Shown here: positions 1-22,938 of the stretch, piece after piece
How positions within the stretch are numbered: position 1 is the first letter of the stretch
Layout: each line of letters starts with the position of its first letter
Source: SAR92 clade bacterium H455
GTDB lineage: Bacteria > Pseudomonadota > Gammaproteobacteria > Pseudomonadales > Porticoccaceae
Direction of reading: 5' to 3'
NCBI GenBank assembly: GCA_024802545.1
Contig: CP103416.1
Coordinates: forward strand, 2,232,001-2,296,000
Length of the DNA: 64,000 nucleotides
The notes under the pieces: model-generated
The model's input: only the letters and a program-made list of their open reading frames with translations
Told to the model about the DNA's origin: nothing
Databases searched by the model: none
Program-made: the position numbers and the translations under genes

Positions 1-1
1 T

Positions 2-511
2 TTAAAATCAGCAATTCGTGACGACGATCCAGTTCTTATATTTGAGGATGTCAATCTCTGGGATCAAGAAGAGTGCGTCTCAACTGATCCGGAGGTCTTA
101 ATCCCGATAGGCCAGGCAGAGATCAAACGGGAGGGCTCGGATATCACAATTGTAGCCATAGGCGCGACACTAAATATTGCGTTAGAGGCCGCCCAGATTC
201 TAGAAGATCAAGGCATATCTGCTGAAATAATAGACCCGCGAACCCTGATACCACTCGATACTGAAGCTCTGATTACTTCAGTGAGAAAGACTGGTCGTCT
301 GGTTATCGTCGATAACGCTCATCGCACTGCCAGCGTTGGCTCTGAGATAGCTGCCCTTATCGTAGAGAGGGCATTTAAGTCTTTAAAAGCGCCAATTCAG
401 CGGATAACTACTCCCGATGTCCATATACCCTACAGCGAAACACTTGAGGCACTGGTTTATCCAAACTGTTCGGACATCTTAGCGGCCGCAACCGTGGCGA
501 TTGCATACTAA
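2..511 (+). CDS. 2-oxoacid dehydrogenase E1 component, beta subunit (3' part, cut by window edge)
   Basis: The reading frame is already open at base 2 and ends at the TAA at 509-511, so about 169 C-terminal residues are seen. It matches the C-terminal half of the complete E1-beta at 21906-22910 segment by segment (DDDPV.IFED, then EI/VVDPRTL.PLD, and KTGRLVIVDNAHRT identical in both). This part is the transketolase C-terminal domain of the pyruvate / acetoin / branched-chain dehydrogenase family, which with E1-alpha and thiamine diphosphate decarboxylates a 2-oxoacid and passes the acyl group to lipoyl-E2. An SDR gene starts 13 bases downstream. No lipoyl or E2 gene follows, unlike the copy at 22 kb. 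The substrate cannot be read from this fragment. Confidence 0.9.
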   Translation, partial: LKSAIRDDDPVLIFEDVNLWDQEECVSTDPEVLIPIGQAEIKREGSDITIVAIGATLNIALEAAQILEDQGISAEIIDPRTLIPLDTEALITSVRKTGRLVIVDNAHRTASVGSEIAALIVERAFKSLKAPIQRITTPDVHIPYSETLEALVYPNCSDILAAATVAIAY

Positions 512-524
512 ATCAAGATCATAA

Positions 525-1343
525 ATGGAAATAACAATGGAACGAATCCTGAATAAAAAAACCGCATTTATCACAGGTGGCGGCCAAGGAATTGGAAGAG
601 GTATTGCGTTAAAACTCGCTGAGGCAGGTGCCAATATCGTGATTGCACAGCGCAATCAGGAAACCGCAAAAAGTGTCATAGATGAAATCCAATTGATGGG
701 GCGTGAGGCAACAGCAATATACATCGACGTAACAGATAAGGAATCTGTAGAAAAGTGCATTGCGAAGTCTCTGAAAGCTTTTCCTGAGATCCAAATCATC
801 ATAAACAATGCAGGTTCATTGCAAAAAAACATTGGAGACTTTACATCAGAGAGTGATTTTGATCTGTGCTATAACGTCAATTTGAAAGGTATTTGGAATG
901 TAGCAGTTCAGTTTTCAGAACATTTAGCTAAGCATCGCCAGGGTAAAATAATTAACATTTCATCAACTGGAGGGCGCGGGCCAGACCCCCTATTCCCAGC
1001 ATATTGCGCCTCAAAATCTGCAGCTATAAATCTAACTCAATCATTAGCCATAAAGTTTGCATCACACAACGTTAATGTAAATGCTATTTGCCCCGGTATT
1101 ATATGGACTCCAATGTGGGAAAAAATAGAGCAGTTTCTCTGTGATGAGAACAGATTAACAAGCAATAATAATGGAGCTATTTTCAACTCCTATACGAAAC
1201 AAATACCACTGGGAAGACCACAGACCAGTGAAGATATTGGAAATGCCGCAGTATTCTTGGCTTCCAAATACTCTTGTAACATTACCGGCCAGTCAATCGA
1301 TATTGATGGAGGTGAACTACTCGCCAGCAGCACGAGACCGTAA
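525..1343 (+). CDS. SDR family NAD(P)-dependent oxidoreductase
   Basis: A classical short-chain dehydrogenase of 272 residues, expected to oxidise or reduce an alcohol/ketone pair in the cytoplasm. The cofactor loop TGGGQGIG is at residues 17-24, NNAG near 94-97, the catalytic Ser near 146-147 and the YxxxK pair at Y160 and K164. It starts 13 bases after the E1-beta stop and is probably cotranscribed with it. A second ATG at 537 is an equally good start. Its middle and C-terminal half resemble the SDR at 20027-20779 (INLTQSLAIK, NVNA.CPG), so an E1-beta plus SDR pair occurs twice in the window. The substrate is unknown. Confidence 0.88.
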   Translation: MEITMERILNKKTAFITGGGQGIGRGIALKLAEAGANIVIAQRNQETAKSVIDEIQLMGREATAIYIDVTDKESVEKCIAKSLKAFPEIQIIINNAGSLQKNIGDFTSESDFDLCYNVNLKGIWNVAVQFSEHLAKHRQGKIINISSTGGRGPDPLFPAYCASKSAAINLTQSLAIKFASHNVNVNAICPGIIWTPMWEKIEQFLCDENRLTSNNNGAIFNSYTKQIPLGRPQTSEDIGNAAVFLASKYSCNITGQSIDIDGGELLASSTRP

Positions 1344-2619: not shown

Positions 2620-4524
2620 TCAAGGCGTATACCAAATCGGCGAACTATAAGCCCGTTCCTGGGTGATCATAGGTATTTCTTCTGGAATGTCTTTAAGACC
2701 AAAGAATTTCGCATCATAAGCAGTCCACCTCGGGGTAGGTATTTCCAGAACACGAAGGTAATAGAATGCCAGTTCATCGCGATCAAAGTCCGGATCCCGC
2801 CAAACCACAGCCAGTTCTGGATCACCAATGCTATTGGTATAGCTGGCGTCTTTTACATCAACTGTAGAGCCGACGGCAGGCGCTCTTCCGTGTTTATCTA
2901 CGGTTCGGCCGTCAGACAGGGCAACGTTATAAATTCGCTCATGTAATTCGCCTTGGCTGTCATGCCAACCTTTAATCACCTGAACTCGATCAAGATTAGC
3001 GCCATCAGGGTCTTTTACTGCACGAATCAGAAAGGTGGGTGACTTTCCGTCAGCCGCATTCGCTAAATCGCCGCCCATGGGCACACCTTTGCTGTAGCCA
3101 ATGCTGGCAAGGTCTGGCCATAGAGCCTCGTTTGGCTGGTAGTCCCAGCCACCAAAAAATCGCACTGTAATACGGGGCCCCGTGGAGGCATAGACTTCCC
3201 TGCGCTTCATCGCTGTAAACAGAGATTCACGGGTGTTTTCTTGGGCCCAGATAGCTGCGTAGCCTGAAGCGTCAAAAGTATTCCTTAACTTAAAATTCTC
3301 CTCAAACCAATTTTCTGCTCGCTGTAATCGCCCAGCGTCAGGCTCTAAGTCGAGCAGCTTTCCACCAAAATTATTTTCCTCAATATTCGATAGCGATGTA
3401 TGAGAATCCGTACTCCCGATCACCCCAACTTTGAATGGATTGACACCAATCCTTTCCTGTTCCTGTAACCCCAGCTTTAGCGCAGATCGAAGATAATCAT
3501 ATCTACGGCCTTTTGACGCTTCACCCTTGTCGCCAAACCACGTCCAAGTTCCGAAGTCGGAAAATTCATCTTCTGGGGATAAACTGGGATGAGTTTCGCT
3601 GTCGCCCTTGGTTTGTGTCACTTCAACCAGAGGTTCATAGCGGCTTCTGGTCACCGCATAGTTTTGACTAAAAGGCCGCCCATAGGAATCGTTTGTCTTG
3701 AATAATCTTCCCCCACTCAGATTGGGATTGTGAGGAATCGCAATTGCATCACCACCAGTAGTTTCTGCATAGCTTTTAAGATACGCCCAAAGATCTTCCG
3801 GCTTGTTGCTATCCAGCTGGGTAAATGGAAGGACACTAGCTACTTTTTCCGAACCGTCCTTGTAAATAACATTCCGATGCCACCAACCACGACCATCTCC
3901 CGCATAAACCATACCTGTCCATTCATACCCGATAAATGCCGTAAATTTGCCTGGATCATTGTTGCGTTCGGCACTTGTGATTACTTTTTGCCATATTGAT
4001 TGGCGGAACTCTCTATCGTTTTCATCTTGATTATCAATAAAATACTGGGTATCAGGATCTAGTGCCCATGCAATCTGCTCCGCTTGTGCAGGAGATTTGG
4101 TCTCTATTATTTGCTTTATTTTACTTATCCACTTGCGCCCCTTAGCGCTCTTCCTTAGCAACGGATCATTAGACGCCAGCCCATACATGAGGCCCATTGC
4201 CTCGGCGTGGTCGGCAACCACTAAAAAATCTAACGGCCGACTCAAGCGCATTGGCATGCCATTCATTGCATTGACGGTTTTACCTTTAGCAAAAGCATAG
4301 GAATCCTCCAAATCAAGCCTGTTGTTAGGACTGAGTCCATAAAGGGCGGAAATAAAGCCATCACTTGAGAGTGTGGTATGCAGATGCGTATCGCCCCAAT
4401 ACACCTGAATGGGGAACTTTTGTTCAGCATCAGGAGAATAGCTTTTGTCCGCTAATATCTGCCCTGCCGACACTAATAAGATCGCGCTAAGTATAAAGTG
4501 AATCTGATTGCATTTAAGTGCCAC
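2620..4524 (-). CDS. DUF3604 family secreted PHP-like protein (copy 1)
   Basis: A 634-residue member of DUF3604 with an N-terminal signal peptide (hydrophobic stretch about residues 9-24, possible cleavage after ILA). Metal-ligand-like motifs typical of PHP-fold hydrolases are visible: GDTHLHT (H47, H49), VADHAE, GYEWT, KGDSETHP and GSTDSHT. The family has no established reaction, so hydrolase is an inference. Translation starts at GTG 4524, six bases after GGAGG. The N-terminal two thirds is nearly identical in DNA to the chimera at 9508-10944. The last ~215 residues are nearly identical to the copies at 11116 and 13210. That mosaic pattern points to gene conversion in the array. Confidence 0.9.
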   Translation of the reverse strand: MALKCNQIHFILSAILLVSAGQILADKSYSPDAEQKFPIQVYWGDTHLHTTLSSDGFISALYGLSPNNRLDLEDSYAFAKGKTVNAMNGMPMRLSRPLDFLVVADHAEAMGLMYGLASNDPLLRKSAKGRKWISKIKQIIETKSPAQAEQIAWALDPDTQYFIDNQDENDREFRQSIWQKVITSAERNNDPGKFTAFIGYEWTGMVYAGDGRGWWHRNVIYKDGSEKVASVLPFTQLDSNKPEDLWAYLKSYAETTGGDAIAIPHNPNLSGGRLFKTNDSYGRPFSQNYAVTRSRYEPLVEVTQTKGDSETHPSLSPEDEFSDFGTWTWFGDKGEASKGRRYDYLRSALKLGLQEQERIGVNPFKVGVIGSTDSHTSLSNIEENNFGGKLLDLEPDAGRLQRAENWFEENFKLRNTFDASGYAAIWAQENTRESLFTAMKRREVYASTGPRITVRFFGGWDYQPNEALWPDLASIGYSKGVPMGGDLANAADGKSPTFLIRAVKDPDGANLDRVQVIKGWHDSQGELHERIYNVALSDGRTVDKHGRAPAVGSTVDVKDASYTNSIGDPELAVVWRDPDFDRDELAFYYLRVLEIPTPRWTAYDAKFFGLKDIPEEIPMITQERAYSSPIWYTP

Positions 4525-4680
4525 ACGTATCCTCCAAGGATTTGTAGTAACTAAATACGCGGAGAGATAGCTAGAGCATCAGCAAATATTTATGTACTTC
4601 AAGAGCTTATCTAGAGGCAGGTTTTAGTAAGTGAAATGGTACGTTTATGCCACTGAAATATTGAGATACATGAATTGTTC
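4525..4680. other. Spacer between DUF3604 copies 1 and 2
   Basis: This 156-base AT-rich gap holds the GGAGG ribosome site of copy 1 at its left edge. It is recognisably related to the spacers at 10945-11115 and 13039-13209 (for example the shared TTTATGTACTT block), so the duplications that built the array included the flanking DNA. The hairpin seen in the other two spacers is degraded here. No open frame is visible. Confidence 0.6.
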
Positions 4681-6636
4681 TTAATTCTGGAGAGGTATTA
4701 ACTGTTGCGGCGTATACCAAATTGGCGAACTATAAGCCCGCTCCTGAGTGACCATAGGTATCTCTTTTGGAAGGCCTTCAAGGCCAAAGAATTTGGCATC
4801 ATAAGCCGTCCACCTAGGTGTGGGAATTTCGAGGACCCGAAGGTAGTAAAACGCCAATTCATCGCGATCAAAATCTGGATCTTGCCAAACTACAGCTAGC
4901 TCTGGATCACCAATGCTATTGGTATAACTTGCGTCATTGACATCGACCGTGCTACCAACAGCTTTCACGAACCCTTGATCATCTTCCGCTCGCCCATCGG
5001 ACAGGGCGACATTGTAGATTTTTTCATACACCTGACCCTGGCTGTCATGCCAGCCTTTTATCACCTGGATTCGATCAAGATTAGCGCCGAGCGGGTCTTT
5101 TACTGCGCGTATCAGGAAGGTAGGCGCCTTGCCCTTAGCTGCACTTGTCAAATCACCACCCATGGGGACACCTTTGCTATAACCTATTTGGGCAAGGTCA
5201 GAACGGAGTGCATCATCTGGCTTGTAGTCCCAGCCGCCAAAAAATCGTACGGTAATTCGAGGCCCAGTTGACGCATAAACTTCCTTGCGCTTCATGGCCG
5301 CAAATAGAGATTCGCGGGAGTTTTCATGAGCCCAAACTCCAGTGTAGCCGGCGGCCGACATACCCCAATTAAGGGGTTTCTCACCATACTTCCATACGAA
5401 TGGCTTCCATGAGGGAGTCACTATACGAGAAAAACTAGGCTCTGAAGATTCGGCAAACTTTCCCCAATAGTTATTCTCATCGGCAGTCGTCAAACCAGTG
5501 TGGGAATCTGTACCGCCAATCATGCCAAATTTAAAGGGATTTTTTCCTACCTTTAACTGTAACGACATTCCCAACATTAATGCAGAGCGTGCATATTCAG
5601 ATGCCTTTTTTTCAGTTAGCGCTTCGCTTGTCTCACCTGTGATATCTCGACCTTCCCACCCATCCCAAGTTTCATAATCGGCGAATGTATCTAATGAGGA
5701 TAATAACGGATGTGTTTCGCTATCGCCCTTTATCTGAGTTACTTCATACAGCGGTTCCCACCGGCTGCGTAAATCAGCGTAATTTATATCAACAGGTGCT
5801 CCGTTTTGGCGATTAAGAGGAAACATTTCGCCATTACTCAAGTTACCATTATGGGCAATAGCCAAAACATCACTGCCAGTTCTCTCCTCATAGTCCTCTA
5901 GGTAGCTCCATAGATCCTCTGGATCGCTGCTATCGAAAACTGTATATGGGAGAGTCTCCTTTACGGTTTCTGCATCCCCCTCAAAGACAACCACACGATG
6001 TAGATTCCCGGAGGGAGATAAACCCGAAGAAGTCCATTCATATCCGATAAATGTTGTGAATTTTCCAGGGTGGTTGTATTGGTCCGCTCTTAAAGTGACC
6101 TTTTCCCAAATCGAGGCGCTAACCAATTTTGTAACTGAGCTGACCCCCCCCTCATTATAAATAGTTCTAACAAATTGGTCAGTTTCGGAGGTCCAGATGC
6201 TAGGACCTTTTCCTTTTAGAATATTTTTATATTGCCGATTTAGTCGCTGACCTGAATCGGTTTTAATAAGTTCTGAGTTACCAGACTGTAAACCCTCCAT
6301 AAGACCTAGATTGAAGCCATGATCTGCTAGCACCAAGAAGTCTAGGGGTCTGTCCAATTTTGCCCACATTCCGTTGCTAGCCTTAACAGTCTCACCCTGA
6401 GCAAAGCGATATGCTTCATCCGGACCTACTCCAGTGTTGCCAAACACATAAGCGTCCACTGACAAATTGGTGTGCAGATGCATATCGCCCCAGTACACAT
6501 TTTTCGGAACAATTGCGTCTAGATGTTGAGGATAATTTTCTTCGGGCATCACTAAAGACGGTATGGAAAGAATAGCCATCGCAACTAAACATCTACGAAT
6601 GAACTCTTTCCGAAACACTGATTTTATATTAAGCAT
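4681..6636 (-). CDS. DUF3604 family secreted PHP-like protein (copy 2)
   Basis: About 651 residues with a cleavable-looking N-terminus, then VYWGDMHLHT, LADHGFN, GYEWTS, KGDSETHP and GGTDSHTG, the same putative metal-site motifs as copy 1. It is the most diverged full-length copy, although its C-terminal ~230 residues still follow the common pattern (STGPRITVRFFGGWDY). The ATG at 6636 overlaps the stop of the upstream GMC oxidoreductase frame by 8 bases and has AAAAAGGCG in front of it. A GTG at 6657 would add 7 residues. The overlap suggests translational coupling to the oxidoreductase, now lost because that gene is disrupted. Function is unknown. Confidence 0.88.
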   Translation of the reverse strand: MLNIKSVFRKEFIRRCLVAMAILSIPSLVMPEENYPQHLDAIVPKNVYWGDMHLHTNLSVDAYVFGNTGVGPDEAYRFAQGETVKASNGMWAKLDRPLDFLVLADHGFNLGLMEGLQSGNSELIKTDSGQRLNRQYKNILKGKGPSIWTSETDQFVRTIYNEGGVSSVTKLVSASIWEKVTLRADQYNHPGKFTTFIGYEWTSSGLSPSGNLHRVVVFEGDAETVKETLPYTVFDSSDPEDLWSYLEDYEERTGSDVLAIAHNGNLSNGEMFPLNRQNGAPVDINYADLRSRWEPLYEVTQIKGDSETHPLLSSLDTFADYETWDGWEGRDITGETSEALTEKKASEYARSALMLGMSLQLKVGKNPFKFGMIGGTDSHTGLTTADENNYWGKFAESSEPSFSRIVTPSWKPFVWKYGEKPLNWGMSAAGYTGVWAHENSRESLFAAMKRKEVYASTGPRITVRFFGGWDYKPDDALRSDLAQIGYSKGVPMGGDLTSAAKGKAPTFLIRAVKDPLGANLDRIQVIKGWHDSQGQVYEKIYNVALSDGRAEDDQGFVKAVGSTVDVNDASYTNSIGDPELAVVWQDPDFDRDELAFYYLRVLEIPTPRWTAYDAKFFGLEGLPKEIPMVTQERAYSSPIWYTPQQLIPLQN

Positions 6637-7907
6637 ATGTTTTGGCGCCTTTTTCACTTAAACAATTTAGAATCATCGAAGCTGCCTTCTCGGCAATCAT
6701 AATAGTTGGCGCATTGGTATTTCCTGATGTAATAACCGGCATAATAGAGGCATCGGCCACCCTTAGATTCTTTACTTGGTGTACCCGCAATTGCTCGTCA
6801 ACCACAGCCAATTGATCTTGCCCCATTTTGCATGTTCCAGCGGGGTGAACCGTATCAATAACCGTATCTCGCAGCCATTGATAAACATCTGCGTCAGTTT
6901 CCACGCCGATACCTGGCGCAATTTCCTGGCGGACGTGAGATTTAATGGATGGCGACGAGAATATTTTTCTAACCTGTTTGATACCAACGGTCAATCTCTC
7001 CAGAGAGCGTTGAGTCCCAAGTAGTTGTGGATATAGCTTGGGCTTCGCATTTGGGTCCGCAGACTCGAGTTCTATGTGACCTCGGCTCTCTGGGCGACAT
7101 TCGTTGACGATAACAAGGACGACCTCTTTGTTTTTAATGTTGTTTTTCTTATTCTTCGGATCAAGACCAAAGGGAATAAGAGTCAGCTGTAAGTCCGGCC
7201 TAGTTGCATCAGGAGAGGAACAGGTAAAAGCTACCGCCTGAGACATACCCGAGTTGGCTAGACCTTTTTTTCGGAAGAACCAATTTGAGCCATGCAGAGC
7301 TTGCTTAAATAAAGAGACCTCAGATGACCAAGTTGGCAATGCCATTTCATACATCATGTAGGCAGCTGGATGTTCCATATGATTTTGCCCAACTCCGGGT
7401 AAATCAAACAGGCAGGGTATGGAGTGTTTTAATAAATGCTGTCGTGGGCCAACTCCGGAAAGCATTAAAAGTTGTGGTGAGCGCAGAGCGCCAGCGCTGA
7501 GAATAATTTCTGAGGAAGCATGCACTGAATACAATTTTCCACTACGCATGTACTCAACTCCTACGGCTTTATCATCTTCGAATACGATACGCTGCACCAA
7601 TGCGCCAGTGATAACTTTCAGATTCTTTCGCTTCAATGCGCCCTTTAGATAGGTCAGTGCCGTGCTCTGACGGATTCCCTGATAAGTAGAACAAGGCGTT
7701 GGAGAAACGCCCTCTTGACTCTCACCGTTGATGTCTGGGTTGTAGGGTATACCCGATTCAACGGCAGCTTTGATAAACAGCGATGAAACCTCTAGCATCG
7801 GGTTAGCATACTCAACCCCGAGGGGACCTGACCGACCATGATATTGATCGGAGCCAATGGTGGTATGCTCTATTTTTTGAAAGAACGGTAATACGTCGTT
7901 ATATGAC
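6629..7907 (-). pseudogene. GMC family oxidoreductase, C-terminal fragment (disrupted by IS)
   Basis: Carries the FAD-dependent glucose-methanol-choline oxidoreductase fold from YNDVLPFF onward: the GALRSPQLLMLSG signature, HMEHP, and the C-terminal catalytic region DTVHPAGTCKMG followed by NTNAPTIMIAEKAA. The 5' part of the gene lies at 9107-9451. The two were separated by the element at 7908-9106. An apparent open frame begins at 7921 but its first codons are IS sequence. Removing the IS and one copy of the 4-bp duplication rejoins GNKGWS with YNDVL in frame, giving about 537 residues, a normal GMC length. The intact enzyme would oxidise a primary alcohol to an aldehyde. It is presumed inactive now. 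Confidence 0.92.
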
Positions 7908-7947
7908 GGTAATCCCCCCATTAATAACCGAAGTTAAAAGTAGAGAG

Positions 7948-8775
7948 TCATGCAGCTAACGCCAACTTCTGTTTTGGTGTTATACCGCCAAGTGCCATAT
8001 TCGGTCTTTCATTATTGTAAGTCCAGAGCCAACGAGTCGCATAGTCTTGAACCTCTTCAATTTGCGCGAAGAGATAATGGCTTAACCAATCGTATCTGAC
8101 TGTGCGATTGTACCGCTCGACATACGCGTTTTGTTGAGGGTTGCCAGGTTGGATGAACAGTAAATCGATACCCCGATCTTCCGCCCAACCCGCCAGCAAC
8201 TCACTAATGTATTCTGGCCCATTATCACAACGAATCTGCCGCGGCTTACCCCTCCACTCAATGACCTGATCCAAAGCGCGCTTAACGCGGATGGCGGGCA
8301 ATGAGAAGTCAACTTCAATGGCGAGCCCTTCACGATTGAAATCATCAATAACGTTGAACAAGCGATAACGTCTGCCATCCGACAGCTGATCATGCATGAA
8401 ATCCATTGACCAACAATCATTGATGGCGGCTGGTACCGATAGGGGTTCTGGCTTGTGCCGCACTAAGCGCTTCTTTGGCTTTATGCGAAGGTTGAGCTCC
8501 AGCTCGCGGTAAATACGATAGACGCGCTTGTGGTTCCACCCAAAGCCCTTCACATTGCGCAGATAGAGATAGCACAGGCCAAATCCCCAGTTGCGTTGAT
8601 TGTGGGTAATTCGAATCAACCAGTCTGCGATGAGAGCATTTTCCTGACTCAGCTTTGGCTGATATCGGTAGCACGTTTGGCTAATCTGGAACGTTAGACA
8701 CACCAGTTTCACGCTGACTTTGTACTTCTCTGTCGCCACCTTAGCCATCTGTCGACGCTGAGATGGCTTTACCAC
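7948..8775 (-). CDS. IS3-family transposase OrfB (DDE integrase domain)
   Basis: This 275-residue frame holds the retroviral-integrase-type catalytic core. The three acidic residues are visible in the contexts [16 protein letters not shown] and [10 protein letters not shown] (D, D, E). An HTH_21-like segment precedes them. The C-terminus, with [14 protein letters not shown], is typical of the IS407 group. It starts at GTG 8775 inside the end of orfA. It is more likely made as an OrfAB fusion by -1 slippage at the AAAAAAG around 8775-8781, where the -1 frame continues directly into this ORF. Confidence 0.93.
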
Positions 8776-9035
8776 TTTTTTGCCATAGCCTCCTGAATGA
8801 TCTCGGCCTTGAGCCGCTCTTCGGCATACATCTTCTTTAGTCGCCTGTTTTCGTCCTCCAGCTCCTTGAGTCGCGTCATCATCGAGGCGTCCATACCGCC
8901 GTATTTACTGCGCCATTTATAGAAGCTCGCGGAGCTCATGCCGTGCTCCCGGCAGAGCTCTGGCACTGGCGTCCCAGCCTCAGCCTGCTTAATGATAGCC
9001 ATGATTTGACTGTCTGAATATCTTGATTTCTTCAT
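8769..9035 (-). CDS. IS3-family transposase OrfA (helix-turn-helix)
   Basis: An 88-residue DNA-binding protein of the transposase_8 (HTH_Tnp_1) type: a [20 protein letters not shown] start, [20 protein letters not shown] recognition region, then a leucine-zipper-like helix ([20 protein letters not shown]). It overlaps orfB by 7 bases, with the slippery sequence in its last codons. It binds the IS ends and, fused to OrfB, forms the active transposase. Confidence 0.93.
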
Positions 9036-9106
9036 GCAGAATCTCCTGCGTATCGGTTACGAGAATATTCTACTTAAAACCTCAGTTAATTTGTGGGGGG
9101 ATTACC

Positions 9107-9451
9107 TGACCACCCCTTGTTGCCCAAGTCAGCCCAGTGATCAAAATCACCAGCGTTGCCTCGAATAAACATCATTCCGTTAATCGAACTGCCTCCACCT
9201 AGTAACTTGCCAGTGCTGAGTTTACATCTGTAGTTATTGATGCTGGGGTCCGATTCCATTACATCGCCCCAATTAAATAAAAGACTGTCAGTCAAATAGA
9301 GAACGCCACCTGGCGCCTTGACGATTGGCAATGAAGCCTTTCCTCGCATTCCTGCTTCGAGCAGCAGCACTCGCTTGCTACTGTCTTCTGAAAGGCGGTT
9401 AGCCAGAACGCAGCCCGCGGAGCCTCCGCCGATAATAATGTAATTCCACAT
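9107..9451 (-). pseudogene. GMC family oxidoreductase, N-terminal fragment (disrupted by IS)
   Basis: The first 115 codons of the GMC oxidoreductase: Rossmann FAD motif IIGGGSAGCVLANRL at residues 6-20, the VLLLEAG strand, the GKLLGGGSSINGM signature and DHWADLGNKGWS, where the IS interrupts it. The ATG at 9451 has AAGGA upstream. The open frame runs a few codons into the element and stops at 9086. The remainder of the gene is at 6629-7907. The E2-like tail of the chimeric gene ends 56 bases upstream, which suggests that the ancestral order was E2 then GMC oxidoreductase. Confidence 0.92.
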
Positions 9452-9507
9452 ATTCTATGTCCTTGGGATAATGTCTTGCTTTTTATCAAATTTAATACTT
9501 CATCAGT

Positions 9508-10944
9508 TCACAGAACAAGATCAGTAGGATTTTCTAACAGCTCCTTAAGACCAGTCAAAAACTGGGCGCCATCGCTTCCATCAAAAACGCGATGATCCAT
9601 GGATAGGGTTACCTTCATAACCGTGCCAATAGACAGCTCTCCATCTTTAACAATAGGCTGAGGATTTCCGCGTGCCACAGCGAGTAAAGTATTCTTCAGT
9701 TTAAAGTTTTGCTCAAACCAATTTTCAGCTCGCTGCAATCGCCCACCGTCAGGTTCCAAATCGAGCAGCTTTCCACCAAAATTATCTTCTTCAATGTTAG
9801 ATAGCGATGTATGAGAATCAGTACTGCCTATCATCCCAACTTTGAACGGATTGGCGCCAACTCTTCCCTGCTCTTGTAAACCCAACTTTAATGCGGACCG
9901 GACATAATCATATTTCCGGCTATTAACAGCTTCACCCTTATCACCAAACCATGTCCAAGTACCAAAGTCGGCTAATTTATCCTGTGGCGACAAACAGGGA
10001 TGGGTTTCGCTATCTCCCTTGGTTTGTGTCACTTCAACAAGGGGCTCATACCGACTTCGAGTTACAGCATACTTTTGACTAAAAGGTTGACCATAAGAAT
10101 CTTTCGTCTTGAACAATTTCCCTCCACTCAGATTGGGGTTATGAGGAATCGCAATTGCATCACCACCCGTCTTATCGGAGTAGCTTTCGAGATATGCCCA
10201 CAGGTCTTCAGGTTTGTTACTGTCGAGCTGTGTAAAGGGAAGGACCTGAGCTACTTTCTCACCACCGCCTTTATAGATAACATTTCGGTGCCACCAACCA
10301 CGACCATCTCCCGCATAAACCATACCTGTCCATTCATACCCGATAAATGCCGTAAATTTCCCTGGATCATTGTTGCGTTCGGCACTTGTGATTACTTTTT
10401 GCCATATTGATTGGCGGAACTCTCTATCGTTTTCATCTTGATTATCAATAAAATACTGGGTATCAGGATCTAGTGCCCATGCAATCTGCTCCGCTTGTGC
10501 AGGAGATTTGGTCTCTATTATTTGCTTTATTTTACTTATCCACTTGCGCCCCTTAGTGCTCTTCCTTAGCAACGGATCATTAGACGCCAGCCCATACATG
10601 AGGCCCATTGCCTCGGCGTGGTCGGCAACCACTAAAAAATCTAACGGCCGACTCAAGCGCATTGGCATGCCATTCATTGCATTGACGGTTTTACCTTTAG
10701 CAAAAGCATAGGAATCCTCCAAATCAAGCCGGTTTTTAGGGCTAAGCCCATAACGGGCGGAAATAAAGCCATCACTTGAGAGGGTAGTATGAAGATGCGT
10801 ATCACCCCAGTACACTTGCTGAGGAAAGTTGCTATCAGCATAGGGCGAGTAACTTTTTTCTGCCAATAGTTGTCCCGCCGACACTAACAATATTGTGCTA
10901 AGTAGAAAGTGAATCTGATTACATTTAAGCAGCACATTTATCAT
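9508..10944 (-). CDS. Chimeric protein: DUF3604 N-terminal region fused to the C-terminus of an E2 acyltransferase
   Basis: A 478-residue frame. Residues 1 to about 419 are a DUF3604 protein with signal peptide, GDTHLHT, VADHAE, KGDSETHP and GSTDSHT motifs, almost identical to copy 1. Homology to copy 1 stops near base 9686 at the NT codons. The last ~59 residues are instead the end of a 2-oxoacid dehydrogenase E2 catalytic domain, including TVMKVTLSMDHRVFDG with the HxxxDG active-site motif, and they match the end of the E2 at 20876-21610. The DUF3604 C-terminal ~215 residues and most of the E2 are missing. It most likely arose by illegitimate recombination during array expansion and may be non-functional. 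Confidence 0.9.
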   Translation of the reverse strand: MINVLLKCNQIHFLLSTILLVSAGQLLAEKSYSPYADSNFPQQVYWGDTHLHTTLSSDGFISARYGLSPKNRLDLEDSYAFAKGKTVNAMNGMPMRLSRPLDFLVVADHAEAMGLMYGLASNDPLLRKSTKGRKWISKIKQIIETKSPAQAEQIAWALDPDTQYFIDNQDENDREFRQSIWQKVITSAERNNDPGKFTAFIGYEWTGMVYAGDGRGWWHRNVIYKGGGEKVAQVLPFTQLDSNKPEDLWAYLESYSDKTGGDAIAIPHNPNLSGGKLFKTKDSYGQPFSQKYAVTRSRYEPLVEVTQTKGDSETHPCLSPQDKLADFGTWTWFGDKGEAVNSRKYDYVRSALKLGLQEQGRVGANPFKVGMIGSTDSHTSLSNIEEDNFGGKLLDLEPDGGRLQRAENWFEQNFKLKNTLLAVARGNPQPIVKDGELSIGTVMKVTLSMDHRVFDGSDGAQFLTGLKELLENPTDLVL

Positions 10945-11763
10945 CCAATAATTGTATTAACTAAAAATACGTAGGACTCTACCCAGACCATCAGCGGAGA
11001 TTTATGTACTTAAACAGTTTTTCTAAATGAAGATTTCAGCAAGAAGATTCATAGATTTATGCCGCTGAGATATTGAGCGGCATGAATTATCCTATAATCC
11101 AGATAACCCTTATTACTACGGCGCATACCAAATCGGCGAACTATAAGCCCGTTCCTGGGTGATCATAGGTATTTCTTCTGGAATGTCTTTGAGACCAAAG
11201 AATTTCGCATCATAAGCAGTCCACCTCGGCGTAGGTATTTCCAGAACACGAAGGTAATAAAATGCCAGTTCATCGCGATCAAAGTCCGGATCCCGCCAAA
11301 CCACAGCCAGTTCTGGATCACCAATGCTATTGGTATAGCTTGCGTCTTTTACATCAACTGTAGAGCCGACGGCAGGCGCTCTTCCGTGTTTATCTACCGT
11401 TCGGCCGTCAGACAGGGCAACGTTATAAATTCGCTCATGTAATTCGCCCTGGCTGTCATGCCAACCTTTAATCACCTGAACTCGATCAAGATTAGCGCCA
11501 TCAGGGTCTTTTACTGCACGAATCAGAAAGGTGGGTGACTTTCCGTCAGCCGCATTCGCTAAATCGCCGCCCATGGGCACACCTTTGCTGTAGCCAATGC
11601 TGGCAAGGTCTGGCCGTAGAGCCTCGTTTGGCTGGTAGTCCCAGCCACCAAAAAATCGCACTGTAATACGGGGCCCCGTGGAGGCATAGACTTCCCTGCG
11701 CTTCATCGCTGCAAACAAAGATTCGCGGGTGTTTTCTTGGGCCCAGATAGCTGCGTAGCCTGA
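10834..11763. repeat. 930-bp direct repeat, copy A
   Basis: Bases 10834-11763 repeat at 12928-13857, offset 2094, with no difference in any line I compared. The unit spans the 5' end of the chimera (and likewise the 5' end of copy 3), the whole spacer and the last ~215 codons of the next DUF3604 gene. Similarity ends abruptly at the codons after SGYAAIW... on one side and before VYWGD on the other. This is the footprint of a recent tandem duplication or gene conversion. Confidence 0.88.
11059..11083 (-). terminator. Spacer hairpin downstream of DUF3604 copy 3
   Basis: An 8-bp perfect inverted repeat, ATGCCGCT / AGCGGCAT, with a 9-base loop lies 33 bases after the stop of the minus-strand gene ending at 11116. 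It recurs identically at 13153-13177 after the gene ending at 13210. The following bases are only weakly T-rich, so it may be a poor terminator or an RNA-stabilising stem. Confidence 0.4.
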
Positions 11764-13038
11764 CGCAGAGGATTCCCAGTTGCGCAATTCAGGAAACAAG
11801 CTCGGCAGCATAGGCTTGTTCATTCGCTCTGCACTTGGAGCATCAGCGGAAAACTTGCCGAAATAGTTATCTTCCTCTGCATTTGCTAGACCTGTATGCG
11901 AGTCGGTGCTACCAATCAAACCAAATTTAAAAGGATTAACCTTGAAACTGGATTTTAATCTAAGCCCGAGCTTTAAAGATGAACGAGCATATTCATATTT
12001 TTTTAACTTAAGGGAGCCTGCCTCCTCTGTGCCTTTTAAACTTTTCCCATACCAACTATTCCATTTCTCATAGTTTGCAAAGCGATCATTAGGAGATAAT
12101 AAAGGGTGAGTTTCACTGTCACCTTTTATCTGAGTGACTTCAATCAATGGTTCCCAGCGTTGACGAGTTTCAGAATAGGATTTAGTTAGCGATTGCCCAT
12201 CATAGGTAGTTAAGGAAAACATCTTTCCATAACTGAGATTACTGTTGTGAGGAATAGCCAGTACTGCACCGCCAGTTTCTTGCTCATATCTTTCAAAATA
12301 TTCCCATAGCTTTTCCGGATTTTTACTATCATTTGCTGAAAATGGGATAGTTTTACTGGTTATATCGGCTCCATCTCTAAAAATAACTACCCTATGGAGG
12401 TTCGAAAATGTTGGAAGATTCCCAGGAATTATAGAGGGAGCATAATCTAGCGATGTCCACTCATAGCCAGCAAAAGCGGTAAAACTACCGGGTTTATTGT
12501 ATAAATCGGCGGTTGCAATGACTTTGTGCCAAACTGTTTTCAGAAATGGGGCATTGGTTTGTTCTAAAAGCGCATTAAAGTCCTCTAGTCCGTAGACATC
12601 ACCTAGACGATGGCTATTCAATATCTTGTTATTTTCCCTGTATAAGCTAAGTAGCTGAGTACCCTGATTCGTTTCAATCAGATAAGGGTCTGCATGCCTA
12701 AGGCCATCAAGTACACCAAGCTCTTCGGCATGGTCAGCAATGACAAGAAAATCAAGAGGCCGATGCATTCGAATGAGCATGCCATTGTGCGCAACCAAAC
12801 TATCTCCCCGCGCAAACCGATAAGCTTGATCCGGCGAGATAGATGAATTACCCATCAAATTGGCATCGAGAGAGATATTTGTATGTAAATGGGTGTCACC
12901 CCAGTAAACCTGCTGAGGAAAGTTGTTATCAGCATAGGGCGAGTAACTTTTTTCTGCCAATAGTTGTCCCGCCGACACTAACAATATTGTGCTAAGTAGA
13001 AAGTGAATCTGATTACATTTAAGCAGCACATTTATCAT
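11116..13038 (-). CDS. DUF3604 family secreted PHP-like protein (copy 3)
   Basis: 640 residues and complete: signal peptide with LLSTILLVSAGQLLA, then VYWGDTHLHTNIS, VIADHAEELG, GYEWTS, KGDSETHP and GSTDSHTG. Its first ~45 residues are those of the chimera at 9508. Its middle (about residues 50-425) is its own diverged version. Its last ~215 residues are identical to copy 4 and nearly identical to copy 1. The middle part carries the putative metal site and probably decides specificity, so the array seems to keep different catalytic regions with a shared end. Start is ATG 13038; GTG 13029 is an alternative. The product is probably periplasmic or exported. The reaction is unknown. Confidence 0.9.
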   Translation of the reverse strand: MINVLLKCNQIHFLLSTILLVSAGQLLAEKSYSPYADNNFPQQVYWGDTHLHTNISLDANLMGNSSISPDQAYRFARGDSLVAHNGMLIRMHRPLDFLVIADHAEELGVLDGLRHADPYLIETNQGTQLLSLYRENNKILNSHRLGDVYGLEDFNALLEQTNAPFLKTVWHKVIATADLYNKPGSFTAFAGYEWTSLDYAPSIIPGNLPTFSNLHRVVIFRDGADITSKTIPFSANDSKNPEKLWEYFERYEQETGGAVLAIPHNSNLSYGKMFSLTTYDGQSLTKSYSETRQRWEPLIEVTQIKGDSETHPLLSPNDRFANYEKWNSWYGKSLKGTEEAGSLKLKKYEYARSSLKLGLRLKSSFKVNPFKFGLIGSTDSHTGLANAEEDNYFGKFSADAPSAERMNKPMLPSLFPELRNWESSASGYAAIWAQENTRESLFAAMKRREVYASTGPRITVRFFGGWDYQPNEALRPDLASIGYSKGVPMGGDLANAADGKSPTFLIRAVKDPDGANLDRVQVIKGWHDSQGELHERIYNVALSDGRTVDKHGRAPAVGSTVDVKDASYTNSIGDPELAVVWRDPDFDRDELAFYYLRVLEIPTPRWTAYDAKFFGLKDIPEEIPMITQERAYSSPIWYAP

Positions 13039-13857
13039 CCAATAATTGTATTAACTAAAAATACGTAGGACTCTACCCAGACCATCAGCGGAGATTTATG
13101 TACTTAAACAGTTTTTCTAAATGAAGATTTCAGCAAGAAGATTCATAGATTTATGCCGCTGAGATATTGAGCGGCATGAATTATCCTATAATCCAGATAA
13201 CCCTTATTACTACGGCGCATACCAAATCGGCGAACTATAAGCCCGTTCCTGGGTGATCATAGGTATTTCTTCTGGAATGTCTTTGAGACCAAAGAATTTC
13301 GCATCATAAGCAGTCCACCTCGGCGTAGGTATTTCCAGAACACGAAGGTAATAAAATGCCAGTTCATCGCGATCAAAGTCCGGATCCCGCCAAACCACAG
13401 CCAGTTCTGGATCACCAATGCTATTGGTATAGCTTGCGTCTTTTACATCAACTGTAGAGCCGACGGCAGGCGCTCTTCCGTGTTTATCTACCGTTCGGCC
13501 GTCAGACAGGGCAACGTTATAAATTCGCTCATGTAATTCGCCCTGGCTGTCATGCCAACCTTTAATCACCTGAACTCGATCAAGATTAGCGCCATCAGGG
13601 TCTTTTACTGCACGAATCAGAAAGGTGGGTGACTTTCCGTCAGCCGCATTCGCTAAATCGCCGCCCATGGGCACACCTTTGCTGTAGCCAATGCTGGCAA
13701 GGTCTGGCCGTAGAGCCTCGTTTGGCTGGTAGTCCCAGCCACCAAAAAATCGCACTGTAATACGGGGCCCCGTGGAGGCATAGACTTCCCTGCGCTTCAT
13801 CGCTGCAAACAAAGATTCGCGGGTGTTTTCTTGGGCCCAGATAGCTGCGTAGCCTGA
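12928..13857. repeat. 930-bp direct repeat, copy B
   Basis: Second copy of the repeat described at 10834-11763. It covers the 5' end of DUF3604 copy 3, the spacer with its hairpin (13153-13177) and the last ~215 codons of DUF3604 copy 4. Recombination between A and B would delete or duplicate one 2.1-kb unit. Confidence 0.88.
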
Positions 13858-14117
13858 AGCGCCAAATTTCCATCCAGCCAGACCGTCGGCTATTCCTTTT
13901 GCCGCACGATCATTACTGGGTTCATGCAGTGTTAGCTTGCCCCAAAAGTTCCTGTCATCTGCCGTCGACAGCGACGTATGAGAATCAGTACTACCGATCA
14001 TGCCGAACTTGAATGGATTTACTTCTAAGAATGATTCGAACTTAAGCCCTCGCTTTAGCGCAGAACGGGCATATTCATATCTTTTCTCCTCAACAGTCCA
14101 ATTTGGATTTAGTGGAT
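13210..14117 (-). pseudogene. DUF3604 family protein (copy 4), 5' end removed by IS
   Basis: The frame is open from the IS boundary at 14117 to the stop at 13210 (about 302 residues). It begins in the middle of the family with RYEYARSALKRG, then NPFKFGMIGSTDSHT and the standard C-terminus. The ATG at 14001 is internal and not a true start. The signal peptide, the HxH motif and roughly 330 N-terminal residues are missing. The segment specific to this copy (about 13858-14117) differs from the other copies, so it was a distinct paralogue before truncation. It is presumed inactive. Confidence 0.88.
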
Positions 14118-14249
14118 TGGACTTCCCAGGCTTTCCTAGACACTGGTTGACTCCAAAAAATACGCCTCTTCGAACTTAGCAGGTGGACTTCCCAGGCTTT
14201 CCTAGACACTGGTTGACTCCAAAAAATACGCCTCTTCGAACTTAGCAGG
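14118..14249. repeat. 66-bp tandem duplication of the IS left end
   Basis: Two identical 66-base units, 14118-14183 and 14184-14249, each start with TGGACTTCCCAGG and end with AACTTAGCAGG. Each carries the terminal inverted repeat and the last codons of orfB. Such doubled ends can arise from IS circle or one-ended transposition events, or from replication slippage. Confidence 0.92.
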
Positions 14250-15023
14250 CGATACGCCGCCTGTATGAGTGTGGCGTTTTATCGGATTGTAAAACATCTC
14301 TATAAAATTAAATATCTCAGTTTTCGCTTCATCCCTTGTCGAGTAGATCTTCCGTTTTGTCACACGCTTTTTAAACGTGGCAAAGAAGCTCTCAGCAACC
14401 GCATTATCATGGCAGTTACCACGCCGGCTCATCGAAGGTATGAGATTATGCTCCTTCACAAATGCCAAGTAATCAGAGCTGGCATACTGGCTTCCTTGAT
14501 CGCTATGAATGAGCACCTCACCTTTTGGCTGTCGCTGCCAGATCGCCATAAGCAAAGCGTTGATCACCAGATGGCGGTCGATATGTTTATCCATTGACCA
14601 GCCTACAATGCGACGCGAAAACAAATCTAAAACCGTAGCCACATACAAAAACCCTTCGTAAGTTCGAACGTAAGTAATGTCGCTGACCCAAGCCTGATTC
14701 GGGTGCTCAGGATTGAACTGACGATCAAGCAAGTTAGCTGCTATCTTCGCCGGCTTGCCGCCTTTGATGTAACGGCGCTTGTAGCCTATCTGCGCTTTTA
14801 AGCGGTTTTCTCGCATGATTCGAGCAACTCGGTGAACGCTACAGCTTTCGCCAGCCTCGCGCAGGTCACGATGAATCCAGGGGCTGCCATAAGTGCCACC
14901 ACTGGCCATGTAAGATTCCTTAACCAGTTTTAGCAGCCGTTGATCCTCAACTGCTCTATCCGAGAGCGGTTTCTGTAGCCACGCATAAAACCCGCTGCGG
15001 TGCAGTTTGAATACACGGCACAT
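14202..15023 (-). CDS. IS3-family transposase OrfB (DDE integrase domain)
   Basis: At least 273 residues of an integrase-core transposase. HTH_21-like region with GGTYGSPWIHRDLRE, then the acidic triad in WVSDITYVRT, HSDQGSQY and NAVAESFFATFK. The C-terminus HTHTGGVSPAKFEEAYF is typical of the IS3 subgroup. The frame is open upstream of the ATG at 15023 and runs back to the slippery heptamer (AAAAAAG, complement at 15104-15110) inside orfA, so the natural product is probably an OrfAB fusion. The last codons lie in the 66-bp duplicated segment. Confidence 0.92.
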   Translation of the reverse strand: MCRVFKLHRSGFYAWLQKPLSDRAVEDQRLLKLVKESYMASGGTYGSPWIHRDLREAGESCSVHRVARIMRENRLKAQIGYKRRYIKGGKPAKIAANLLDRQFNPEHPNQAWVSDITYVRTYEGFLYVATVLDLFSRRIVGWSMDKHIDRHLVINALLMAIWQRQPKGEVLIHSDQGSQYASSDYLAFVKEHNLIPSMSRRGNCHDNAVAESFFATFKKRVTKRKIYSTRDEAKTEIFNFIEMFYNPIKRHTHTGGVSPAKFEEAYFLESTSV

Positions 15024-15070
15024 CGTTTTAATTGAAAACTCACCCTGATTGTCACGAATGAAGGAGTACT

Positions 15071-15349
15071 TTACTCGGGCTGGCTTGCAAAGTACTTTGC
15101 GGCCTTTTTTAGAATGTCGCGTTCCTCCGTGACACGCATCAACTCGACTTTAAGGCGAATGATCTCAGCCTGGTCGTCGGAAGATTTGATCTGCTGCGGG
15201 CTGCCGTGCATGGAGGCCTTCCAATGGTATAAGGTTTTTGTACAGATGCCGAGTCGCTCCGCGACCTCAGCAACAGAATAGCCTCGTTCGACAATCTGCT
15301 TAACGGCCTCTTCTTTAAACTGCTGTGTGTAGCGTTTTCCCTTGCTCAT
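15071..15349 (-). CDS. IS3-family transposase OrfA (helix-turn-helix)
   Basis: 92 residues: GKRYTQQFKEEAVKQIVERG, an HTH with VAEVAERLGICTKTLYHWK, and a C-terminal heptad helix (AEIIRLKVELMRVTEERDIL). It is the DNA-binding half of the transposase. An A-AAA-AAG site in codons for LKKA allows -1 frameshifting into orfB. It looks intact. Confidence 0.92.
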   Translation of the reverse strand: MSKGKRYTQQFKEEAVKQIVERGYSVAEVAERLGICTKTLYHWKASMHGSPQQIKSSDDQAEIIRLKVELMRVTEERDILKKAAKYFASQPE

Positions 15350-15543
15350 ATGACCCTCTCTTTGAGTTACATTTTAACTCTTTTGAGTGTCTAGAAAAGT
15401 CTGGGAAGTCCAAAATACTAATTGTTATTTTTCTTAAAAATAAGACACTACAAAGGCCCTATTTCCGAGCTAAAGTATTCCCTTATTAAACTGCGATAAA
15501 TTGACTCATTTTTCTCAATTTTAAGCATGAAAAGGAAATCCTA

Positions 15544-17347: not shown

Positions 17348-18409
17348 ATGAGCAACCCAGAACAGCTAGCAAAGTTTGAACAGAAAATAGATCCTCAGCT
17401 TCGTGAACTACTCAGGGCTACACCAGACTTACTCCATGACCTACCGACTCTGCGTGAGATACAGGCACGGGTTAGCAATTATCTGCTGGAATACGGCGAC
17501 AATATAAAGCATTCGTCAGAGGTCCTAATCTATGAAGCAGAGGTGCCCCGTACACAAACCAGTGCACCAGTAAAAATCCGTTGCTATGAACCCAAAAATC
17601 GTGAGCGCACTAGGGATGATCAAGACAAACCTCTACCGGTTTTACTCTGGATTCATGGCGGCGGGTTTATTTCCGGAGATGTAAGATCCAATGACAATAT
17701 CTGCGAAAACTTTGTGGTTCAGTGTAACTGCCTTGTGGTCTCGGCAGAGTATCGGCTGACACCTCAGCACCCCTATCCTGCAGGATTTGATGACTGCTAT
17801 GCGGTTCTAGATTGGCTCGCCAGTAGTGGTGTTGAAGAGCTAAATATAGATAGTGACAGAATTGCTGTGGGCGGCTCGAGTGTTGGCGGTTGTCTAGCGG
17901 CCGGTATTGCGCTAAAAGCCTGCGAAACTGATGGCCCTAAGATCAAACATCAACTGCTACTAATTCCGGTACTCGATGACCGCCACATAACACAGTCAAG
18001 CCAAGATATAACCGATCATCGGGTGGTTTGGAATCGCGATCTATCAATGCTCGCCTGGGATGGTTATCTCCATGATGTCTTTGGTGAGACGCCTAGCTAT
18101 GCGGCTCCAGCCCGGACAAAGACCATACCCAACCTGCCCAGCACGTTTATCTCGGTGGAAGAACAGGATATCTTGCGCGATGAATCCATTGTCTATGCTC
18201 AGCGCCTGATGCAAGCCGGCGTGAACACCGAGCTGCACGTCTACCCTGGCACTTTCCATGGGTCTTTTATGGATGTGCCTGAGGCCGATGTTAGCAAACA
18301 GCATATGGCAGATGTTTTTAATTCCTTGAAAAAAGCGCTGAGTGAAAATTTGGACAGTGAAGATGCTGATTGCGGCATACTAAAAGACTGGTTTGAAACT
18401 CCTGTCTGA
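17348..18409 (+). CDS. Alpha/beta hydrolase, hormone-sensitive-lipase (type IV esterase) family
   Basis: 353 residues with the HSL oxyanion motif HGGG at 103-106 and a nucleophile elbow GSSVG with Ser178 (the common family form is GDSAGG). The likely acid is Asp274 in DILRDE and the base His304 in TFHGS. It should hydrolyse carboxylic esters of small or medium chain length in the cytoplasm, since no signal peptide is seen. It stands alone on the plus strand, converging with the SDR of the large minus-strand operon. It may release the alcohol or acid that the operon oxidises. That link is inferred only from proximity. Confidence 0.9.
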   Translation: MSNPEQLAKFEQKIDPQLRELLRATPDLLHDLPTLREIQARVSNYLLEYGDNIKHSSEVLIYEAEVPRTQTSAPVKIRCYEPKNRERTRDDQDKPLPVLLWIHGGGFISGDVRSNDNICENFVVQCNCLVVSAEYRLTPQHPYPAGFDDCYAVLDWLASSGVEELNIDSDRIAVGGSSVGGCLAAGIALKACETDGPKIKHQLLLIPVLDDRHITQSSQDITDHRVVWNRDLSMLAWDGYLHDVFGETPSYAAPARTKTIPNLPSTFISVEEQDILRDESIVYAQRLMQAGVNTELHVYPGTFHGSFMDVPEADVSKQHMADVFNSLKKALSENLDSEDADCGILKDWFETPV

Positions 18410-19233: not shown

Positions 19234-19980
19234 TCAGCTACATACTGCTATGGGAATGCTTTGCATAGGTCGGTAGACCCACTCGGCGAAATTGATTAAG
19301 TCAAGAGCTGGAAAGTCGAGAGCATCCTCCGGCAATAGCCCCATACTCTGCATCATTGCTTCAGGTGTTCCCTCCTGCTCGTAGACCGCGATCATTTGAT
19401 AGCTTGGTTGTCGTGCACCAGGCCTTTGATAACCGGTTAGCTCCAAACACTGACCGCTGACCAGTTCAGCAACTTTTAGGGCGTGACGAATATGGCGAGT
19501 GCAGTACCATTCACGGAACTCTTGGTCTGTACCAGGTAACGGATTCGCAAACGCCAGAGTTAACATTTCTTCTCCGGCGATAGCCGAACGGCCTACTTTT
19601 TCACTTACGGGGTAGTACAACCAGGTACTTGGAACGCCGGCAGAGGGCTCCAGCTTATACAGCTGTTCTATCTCTTGAATAATTTTCTCTGCCTGTTCGG
19701 CACCATCTACTGAGAGTTCGATAATGCTCAGATAGTCATCAGGAATATCTTGGTAGGCTCCCTCAGTCACATCCACATCATGTTTCTCAAAATGATTGAC
19801 ACTGAGAACACCCTGTAATTCCGCAAGTCTTGCAGAAAAGGCACTCTTAGACCAACTGACAAATTCCCCCTGCTGATCAGGCTTGGAGCTACTGAGTAAA
19901 AAAATCACGTGACTACGTTGAGTTTTTATTAGCTCCAACGGATTCTCTGTACTAGTTTTGAGCGGTTCTATCCTTGACAT
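19234..19980 (-). CDS. EthD-like / dimeric alpha-beta barrel protein
   Basis: About 248 residues forming two similar halves. The second half, with FREWYCTRHIRHALKVAELV and then a QCLELTGYQ strand, resembles EthD / stress-responsive dimeric alpha-beta barrel domains (pattern F.WY...H...). The first half has a comparable but weaker layout. The ATG at 19980 is preferred over 19992 because GGAGAA lies just before it. No catalytic motif is known for such proteins; some act in degradation of organic compounds. It sits between two SDR genes in the large operon, which suggests a role in the same route. The family assignment is tentative. Confidence 0.6.
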   Translation of the reverse strand: MSRIEPLKTSTENPLELIKTQRSHVIFLLSSSKPDQQGEFVSWSKSAFSARLAELQGVLSVNHFEKHDVDVTEGAYQDIPDDYLSIIELSVDGAEQAEKIIQEIEQLYKLEPSAGVPSTWLYYPVSEKVGRSAIAGEEMLTLAFANPLPGTDQEFREWYCTRHIRHALKVAELVSGQCLELTGYQRPGARQPSYQMIAVYEQEGTPEAMMQSMGLLPEDALDFPALDLINFAEWVYRPMQSIPIAVCS

Positions 19981-20026
19981 ATTGTTCTCCATTTATTCAT
20001 TACAATTCATTAGAAATGATCCTGCG

Positions 20027-20779
20027 CTAACTCAGTACAGTCCCGCAGTCGACATTAAGTGCCTGTCCAGTAATATTTTTTGCTCTGGGAGAGGCAAAAA
20101 AGGCTACTGCACAGCCGATGTCTTGGGCACTAAGTGGGCGCTTTAAAATTCTTTCGTCAATGATATTTTCTAGCAGTCCTTCACCGTTGGATGAAAAACT
20201 ATCAGCCATTCTAGTCATCACCCCGCCAGGGCAAACTGCATTGACATTGATATTGTCAGCACCCAATTTTATCGCAAGTGACTGTGTCAAATTGATCACA
20301 GCAGCTTTAGATGCTGAGTAAGCTGGTGTGTCCGCCCATGGGGAGCGACCGTTAATTGAGGCTATATTGACAATATTTCCTGTATGCGCAGCTTTAAAGT
20401 GCGGTACCAATGCCGTGACCATCCGCCAAATACCAAAAAGATTAATATCAAAGCATTGATTAAATTGCTCTATGGTTGAGTCAGTATTGAGATTCTCCCT
20501 GTGTATACCGGCATTATTCACCAAGATATCAATCTGCCCAAAATGCCCTATACCATGACCAACAGATTTATTAACTGATTTATCATCTGACACATCTAAA
20601 GCTAAAGGTAAAACATCCCAGTCTAGTGATCGCATTTCATCTGCTGTAGCTTGAGCAGCGTTTAAGTCGATATCGCCTATGACTACGCGCGCTCCAGCGG
20701 CAGCCAATTCAGTGGCTATTCCTTTACCTATGCCCTGAGCACCTCCGGTCACTAGTGCAACCTTAGATTTCAAATCCAT
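20027..20779 (-). CDS. SDR family oxidoreductase
   Basis: 250 residues with TGGAQGIG at 11-18, an acidic residue after the second strand (IGDID, suggesting NAD), NNAG at 88-91, a catalytic Ser near 141, Y154 and K158 (YSASK), and a C-terminal NVDCG. It is closest in the window to the SDR at 525-1343. In both places the SDR is encoded just downstream of E1-beta, or E1-beta/lipoyl/E2, genes. It probably makes or uses the 2-oxoacid or its hydroxy precursor. That role is inferred from context. Confidence 0.9.
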   Translation of the reverse strand: MDLKSKVALVTGGAQGIGKGIATELAAAGARVVIGDIDLNAAQATADEMRSLDWDVLPLALDVSDDKSVNKSVGHGIGHFGQIDILVNNAGIHRENLNTDSTIEQFNQCFDINLFGIWRMVTALVPHFKAAHTGNIVNIASINGRSPWADTPAYSASKAAVINLTQSLAIKLGADNINVNAVCPGGVMTRMADSFSSNGEGLLENIIDERILKRPLSAQDIGCAVAFFASPRAKNITGQALNVDCGTVLS

Positions 20780-20875
20780 TATTACTATTCCGCTGTAAGT
20801 TATTCATACCATTCTAAAAGGCACTGTATAGCCAGACTGCATAGCCAGATATACCTAGACCTCTTCTCATAAAAG

Positions 20876-21610: not shown

Positions 21611-21615
21611 AAGGG

Positions 21616-22910: not shown

Positions 22911-22938
22911 AACGATTACGTCCTTTTAAGTTGCTAGG

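Follow-up and report, generated by a model that had tools for sequence, protein, structure and literature searches.

A recombination mosaic of tandem DUF3604 genes, probably encoding exported PHP-fold hydrolases, in a SAR92 clade bacterium

The DUF3604 array

We analyzed a 64,000-nucleotide stretch of DNA (hereafter, the window; positions 2232001-2296000) from the chromosome of SAR92 clade bacterium H455, which is assembled as one contig of 2.96 Mb. The window contains a tandem array of genes of the DUF3604 family (PF12228), to which Pfam assigns no function. A preliminary description of this DNA had counted three full-length copies, one chimera and one truncated copy between positions 2620 and 14117, and the Pfam analysis bore this out. 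The full-length copies c1, c2 and c3 matched the whole profile with scores of 730.7, 754.9 and 749.5 bits, respectively, far above the curated cut-off of 20.4, and the fusion gene and the truncated copy c4t gave partial matches. All of the array DUF3604 genes lie on the minus strand, where the order of transcription is c4t, c3, the fusion gene, a GMC oxidoreductase gene split by an insertion sequence (IS), c2 and c1. Four more full-length DUF3604 genes occur outside the array in the same genome (at 1562796, 2178293, 2590750 and 2660292). The features are listed below in window coordinates; those given without a match were defined on the DNA sequence itself.

2620-4524, minus: c1, full-length DUF3604 with a signal peptide (by eye), a PHP domain and an immunoglobulin (Ig)-like C-terminal domain (PF12228 39-634, E 1.6e-219)
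4681-6657, minus: c2, full-length DUF3604 (PF12228, E 7.4e-227)
6629-7907, minus: GMC oxidoreductase gene, 3' part (listed open reading frame (ORF) 6629-7921; PF00732 59-217 and PF05199)
7908-9106, minus: IS3-family element within the GMC gene (NF033516; 12-bp inverted ends, 4-bp flanking repeats tgac)
9107-9451, minus: GMC oxidoreductase gene, 5' part (PF00732 2-59)
9508-9690, minus: tail of E2 (2-oxoacid dehydrogenase acyltransferase), in-frame part of the fusion gene (PF00198 174-231)
9691-10944, minus: DUF3604 portion of the fusion gene, residues 1-418 (PF12228 profile 2-355)
10833-11763, minus: connector repeat copy 1, c3 C-terminus, spacer and fusion-gene 5' end (identical to 12927-13857)
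11116-13038, minus: c3, full-length DUF3604 (PF12228, E 3.3e-225; structure predicted)
11764-12926, minus: c3 PHP cassette between the direct repeats, 1,163 bp
12927-13857, minus: connector repeat copy 2, c4t C-terminus, spacer and c3 5' end (identical to 10833-11763)
13210-14117, minus: c4t, C-terminal part of a fourth DUF3604 gene (PF12228 326-591 over 13210-14001; frame open to 14117)
14118-14183, minus: duplicated 66-bp end of an IS3-family element
14184-15412, minus: complete IS3-family element
17348-18409, plus: Abhydrolase_3 esterase, also found beside the array of a sister species

In the fusion gene (9508-10944), the DUF3604 residues run in frame into a 60-residue E2 tail, whose best matches among the E2 proteins of the same genome are 50-57% identical in amino acids; the E2 piece is a fusion scar. 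Copy c4t is cut at the 66-bp IS end fragment (14118), beside the complete element. The GMC gene (9451-6629), whose product gave a choline-dehydrogenase-like match below the cut-off, carries a 1,199-bp IS3-family element that splits it at profile position 59. The interleaved GMC 'remnants' of the preliminary description are therefore one gene, as its two Pfam halves and the tgac repeats around the element indicate. Two more 100%-identical copies of each of the two IS3-family elements occur elsewhere in the genome, and these suggest that both inserted recently.

Recombination mosaic

Windowed comparison of the five copies showed that divergence is not uniform along the genes. As had been noticed earlier, the C-terminal ~215 residues are homogenised in c1, c3 and c4t, with 98-100% DNA identity versus 54-57% upstream and sharp breakpoints between the two. 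In a maximum chi-squared permutation analysis, the observed value was reached in none of 1000 permutations for each of the seven pairs tested. The C-terminus of c2 is ~79% identical in DNA to those of c1 and c3, and is an older, diverged version of the homogenised end.

Homogenisation at one end is only part of the pattern. The identity tract between c3 and c4t runs on through the spacer into the following gene, forming two perfect direct repeats of 931 bp, which we call connectors and which cover the C-terminus, the spacer and the start of the next gene, so that the PHP part of c3 sits between perfect direct repeats. A second tract was found between c1 and the fusion gene at residues ~75-235 (c3 numbering), where the number of synonymous substitutions per site (dS) is 0.11, as against 0.95 and 1.12 in its flanks.

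We also constructed FastTree phylogenies for each segment (126 sequences per segment; 127 of 134 sequences were kept, those shorter than 560 aa being dropped except the fusion and c4t). The trees were discordant. In the PHP tree, c1 and the fusion grouped with a gene of the sister species G001 (L132:3438; support 1.0), c2 with another G001 gene (L133; 0.97) and c3 with L046 (0.91), whereas the C-terminus tree grouped c1, c3 and c4t (0.974); some neighboring nodes were weakly supported (0.35-0.53). Identity tracts with sharp breakpoints thus occur together with discordance between segments, the pattern looked for as a sign of gene conversion.

In the sister species G001, two contigs sharing an overlap of 127 identical bases carry three or more DUF3604 genes, and this array adjoins the same esterase (88% amino acid identity). 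The DNA identity of its gene pair is 78% at the 5' end, 47-60% in the middle, and 75% and then 67% (truncated last region) in the C-terminus, which suggests an older version of the same mosaic. Among the loci examined, mosaic arrays with connector repeats were found only here and in this one sister species. A homogenised C-terminus as a rule of the family was rejected: among 29 pairs in 23 multi-copy loci, the sister-species pair (82% in residues 425-530; truncated last region, 62%) was the only one with C-terminal data to exceed 75% amino acid identity in any C-terminal region. When these 23 loci were each searched against themselves with BLASTN, no DUF3604 tract reached 85% among the matches listed (up to six per locus), and the 93-97% repeats in L068, L085 and L134 lie outside DUF3604. 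Separately, locus L129 (G009:C75) contains a 79% repeat of the gene-end/spacer type; its genome has at least 18 DUF3604 matches, and the repeat may mark another connector-type array broken by assembly.

Predicted fold and metal site

The predicted structure of c3 (AlphaFold2, mean predicted local distance difference test score 91.3) has a PHP barrel fold. Nine residues (H50, H52, D58, H103, E193, H215, H264, D379 and H381 of c3) were invariant wherever present in 70 sequences, namely 67 of 87 ORFs of 560-760 aa plus the three window copies. They fall in four motifs, and from the order of these motifs we take them to be the PHP metal ligands. All nine positions are kept in c1, c2 and c3, and also in the fusion, which lacks the C-terminal domain and the end of the barrel. 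The metal site proposed in the preliminary description is thus supported by both the model and residue conservation. Its motifs are present in c1, c2, c3 and the fusion, but the truncated c4t has only the last one (DSHT); and KGDSETHP, which had been read as a metal motif, belongs instead to an invariant family motif (ExxQxKGxxExH), the nine ligands mapping elsewhere. From signal peptides judged by eye, the array enzymes are likely to be exported.

Compared with the PHP phosphoesterases BVU_3505 (3e38), TM0559 (2anu), PsfC (7rty) and EndoQ (7k30), the array proteins have large insertions, the extra Ig-like C-terminal domain and the invariant family motif, and no PDB chain is significantly similar to them in sequence.

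Divergence and selection

As the preliminary description stated, the catalytic middle differs strongly between copies: identity by region is 33-59% among the PHP parts of c1-c3 and 82-99% among their C-terminal regions (family mean 58-61%). The comparison with G001 adds to this picture. For four single-copy DUF3604 orthologs, identity is 92-96% along the whole protein (dS 0.42-0.73) and 93-99% by region, and the esterase has a dS of 0.9, whereas the best identities of the array PHP domains are 67% for c1 or the fusion, 57% for c2 and 49% for c3. Given that these values are far below those of the single-copy orthologs, the array appears to be a fast-turnover locus, either through replacement or through differently sorted old paralogs.

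Such figures might be expected if, as first proposed, positive selection for new substrate specificities drove the middle apart while conversion held one end. However, the 67 outside sequences average 37-58% identity in the same PHP regions, so that the catalytic parts of the array copies are as divergent as those of enzymes from unrelated bacteria, that is, at the family average. In addition, the ratio of nonsynonymous to synonymous substitution rates (dN/dS) was 0.05-0.16 in every comparison with measurable dS. The ratios are averages rather than per-site values, and dS was saturated, so that no ratio was obtainable, between species and between the PHP domains of different array lineages (including c1 versus c3). 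Because of these low ratios, selection is purifying rather than diversifying where dS is measurable, and we regard positive selection as an unlikely explanation.

Purely neutral decay, in which IS elements and ectopic recombination erode duplicated genes that retain little function, seems equally improbable. Three of the six genes are indeed damaged (GMC by an IS, c4t at an IS end, the fusion by the E2 tail), but the other three, c1, c2 and c3, are intact and retain every ligand, and dN/dS between c1 and the fusion is also low outside the shared tract (0.06-0.07).

Genomic context

To survey neighboring genes, we used BLASTP at 1e-8 with neighbors from the window and from elsewhere in the same genome. 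The survey covered 80 named loci, the best 80 of 537, with a bias towards the array query; their flanks extend up to 10 kb and often less, and one locus (L117) yielded no DUF3604 ORF. Neighbors were rotamase in 30 loci, HupE in 27, TonB receptors in 10, short-chain dehydrogenase/reductase (SDR) in nine, acyl-CoA dehydrogenase in eight, aldehyde dehydrogenase (ALDH) in four and E1-alpha in two. With these often short flanks, GMC, E1-beta and E2 were found in none of the 80.

These counts bear on the idea that the array belongs to an oxidative catabolic route, in which GMC and 2-oxoacid dehydrogenase would be its functional partners. A GMC gene does lie inside the array, with E1/E2, ALDH, SDR and TonB genes up to 30 kb away, and among the matches listed GMC directly adjoins DUF3604 of another subfamily (~31% identical) in three other genomes of the genus (G003, G023 and G027), as GMC-ALDH fusions (two checked) or as separate neighbors. 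However, no recurrent neighborhood of DUF3604 with GMC and E1/E2 emerged, the short sister-array contigs carry none of these genes, and in the array itself the GMC gene is broken and the E2 tail is a scar. The association is therefore rejected as a general rule, and a functional tie at this locus is somewhat less probable than either alternative above. In a further genome (G015), a GMC gene lies ~5 kb from DUF3604. The GMC-ALDH fusions were seen in L165 (9239-12412), where an FMN oxidoreductase follows, and in L167 (9074-12193).

Rotamase or HupE occurs in 31 of the 80 loci, with all genes on one strand in 30 (the exception is L057); the genes from our genome used as queries encode a PpiC-type rotamase (Rotamase_2) and HupE_UreJ_2. 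Across 56 genomes (our genome and its relatives), 55 HupE_UreJ_2 genes scored 100 bits or more. DUF3604 is no farther than 2.5 kb from at least 37 of them, which come from 34 of the 38 genomes with a HupE_UreJ_2 gene of this score; the DUF3604 matches counted are those listed, without the weaker partial ones, so that 37 is a lower bound. DUF3604 thus recurs together with PpiC-type rotamase and/or HupE_UreJ_2 as a gene module at loci of several phyla. The partner genes may encode a dedicated foldase and a permease for metal or another substrate that serve the single-copy type. An own-genome module of this kind, which includes the single-copy DUF3604 gene at genome positions 2660292-2662100, lies in L044 (genome 2652000-2670000) at 6258-10179. 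The array copies have neither partner within the window. Among 48 ORFs picked from nine array-clade loci, no Pfam family occurs more than three times; those listed include carboxylesterases (three), alpha/beta hydrolases (three), beta-lactamase-type proteins, sulfatases and cyclases (two each), and single amidase, M81 peptidase, S15 peptidase, proline racemase and other genes.

Similar gene sets flank the array, on the left (L041 17764-20000 with window 1-1343) and on the right (window 19234-23910). Each comprises a ~250-aa protein with no Pfam match, E1-alpha, E1-beta and SDR; E2 lies beside the right set only, its lipoyl and catalytic domains encoded by two ORFs separated by a few bases (window 20876-21882). 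L041 13257-17753, immediately to the left of the window and flanked by an AMP ligase gene on one side and E1-alpha/E1-beta genes on the other, encodes a 1498-aa single-module protein resembling nonribosomal peptide synthetases (condensation, AMP-binding, carrier and terminal reductase). Near the sister-species array is an acyltransferase gene of the Transferase family PF02458 (L133 4635-5930), a family known mainly from plants. One metagenome-assembled genome has DUF3604 genes on L050 and L051, including a tandem of three on L051; near them are sulfatases (two matches, of which the L051 one was named by eye) and, judged by eye, a gene resembling TIM-barrel isomerases.

Discussion

We propose, with a probability of roughly 0.66, that the products of the array are exported hydrolases that depend on metal and have the PHP superfold (a signal peptide, a barrel carrying a probable two- or three-metal center and an Ig-like domain), that they act on ester or phosphodiester substrates and that their genes form a cassette-exchange mosaic. 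Most likely they would hydrolyze phosphodiester-like or other ester bonds outside the cytoplasm, and each copy may have a different substrate range. Sb-PDE of Sphingobium sp. TCM1 offers a partial parallel, since the available parts of its description report a 441-aa protein assigned to PF02811 with a signal peptide, a PHP domain and phosphodiester hydrolysis (PMC5460133), the activity that is predicted here. It belongs to a different family, and those parts mention no C-terminal domain (PMC5460133).

Several observations weigh against this proposal. We obtained no evidence of substrate or activity for DUF3604, and in the open literature searched, which mostly excludes subscription journals and bioRxiv preprints, the family appears only in one paper, as a table entry, and 'PF12228' was not found. 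Foldseek alone placed no PHP chain among the best 50 matches listed, and a sequence-profile search of PDB found no relative at E 10. Neighbors of the array clade are mixed, with no phosphate theme among 25 of 71 families listed. Moreover, homogenisation is not general, the weaker sister-species array being the only similar case among the 23 other multi-copy loci. That the identical tracts are collapsed or mis-joined repeats is very improbable: perfect 931-bp repeats are a classic site of mis-assembly and the layout rests on the assembly rather than on reads, but the genome is a single contig, the tracts differ in dS, and the sister species has an array, itself split over two contigs, beside the same esterase.

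In tandem paralogs undergoing concerted evolution, conversion tracts homogenise shared parts within one genome. The array is a case of this in an uncharacterised PHP-fold family, and its division into connectors and cassettes is unusually clean. It differs from the usual case in that the homogenised unit is a gene end, a spacer and the start of the next gene, with a catalytic cassette left between perfect direct repeats. A probable origin of the mosaic is that RecA-type recombination finds sufficient similarity only in the C-terminus, the spacer, the signal-peptide region and the PHP halves of c1 and the fusion. The connectors would then be kept homogeneous by unequal crossing-over and conversion, and PHP cassettes, too divergent to recombine, would be added, dropped or swapped between them. 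More tentatively, the array could be a natural site of domain exchange, in which connectors of ~1 kb serve as recombination arms and PHP cassettes are taken up, swapped and lost, giving strain-specific sets of exported hydrolases. Some cassettes may then have come from outside the lineage, as c3 groups with a distant metagenome-assembled genome.

DUF3604 occurs in many phyla, with many copies in this genus, and our search turned up no known activity for it. With the PHP superfold, the complete predicted metal site and the PpiC and HupE partners to go on, its function can now be tested directly. The array itself illustrates clearly how the ends of a probably exported enzyme are held fixed by recombination while the catalytic part turns over between sister species.
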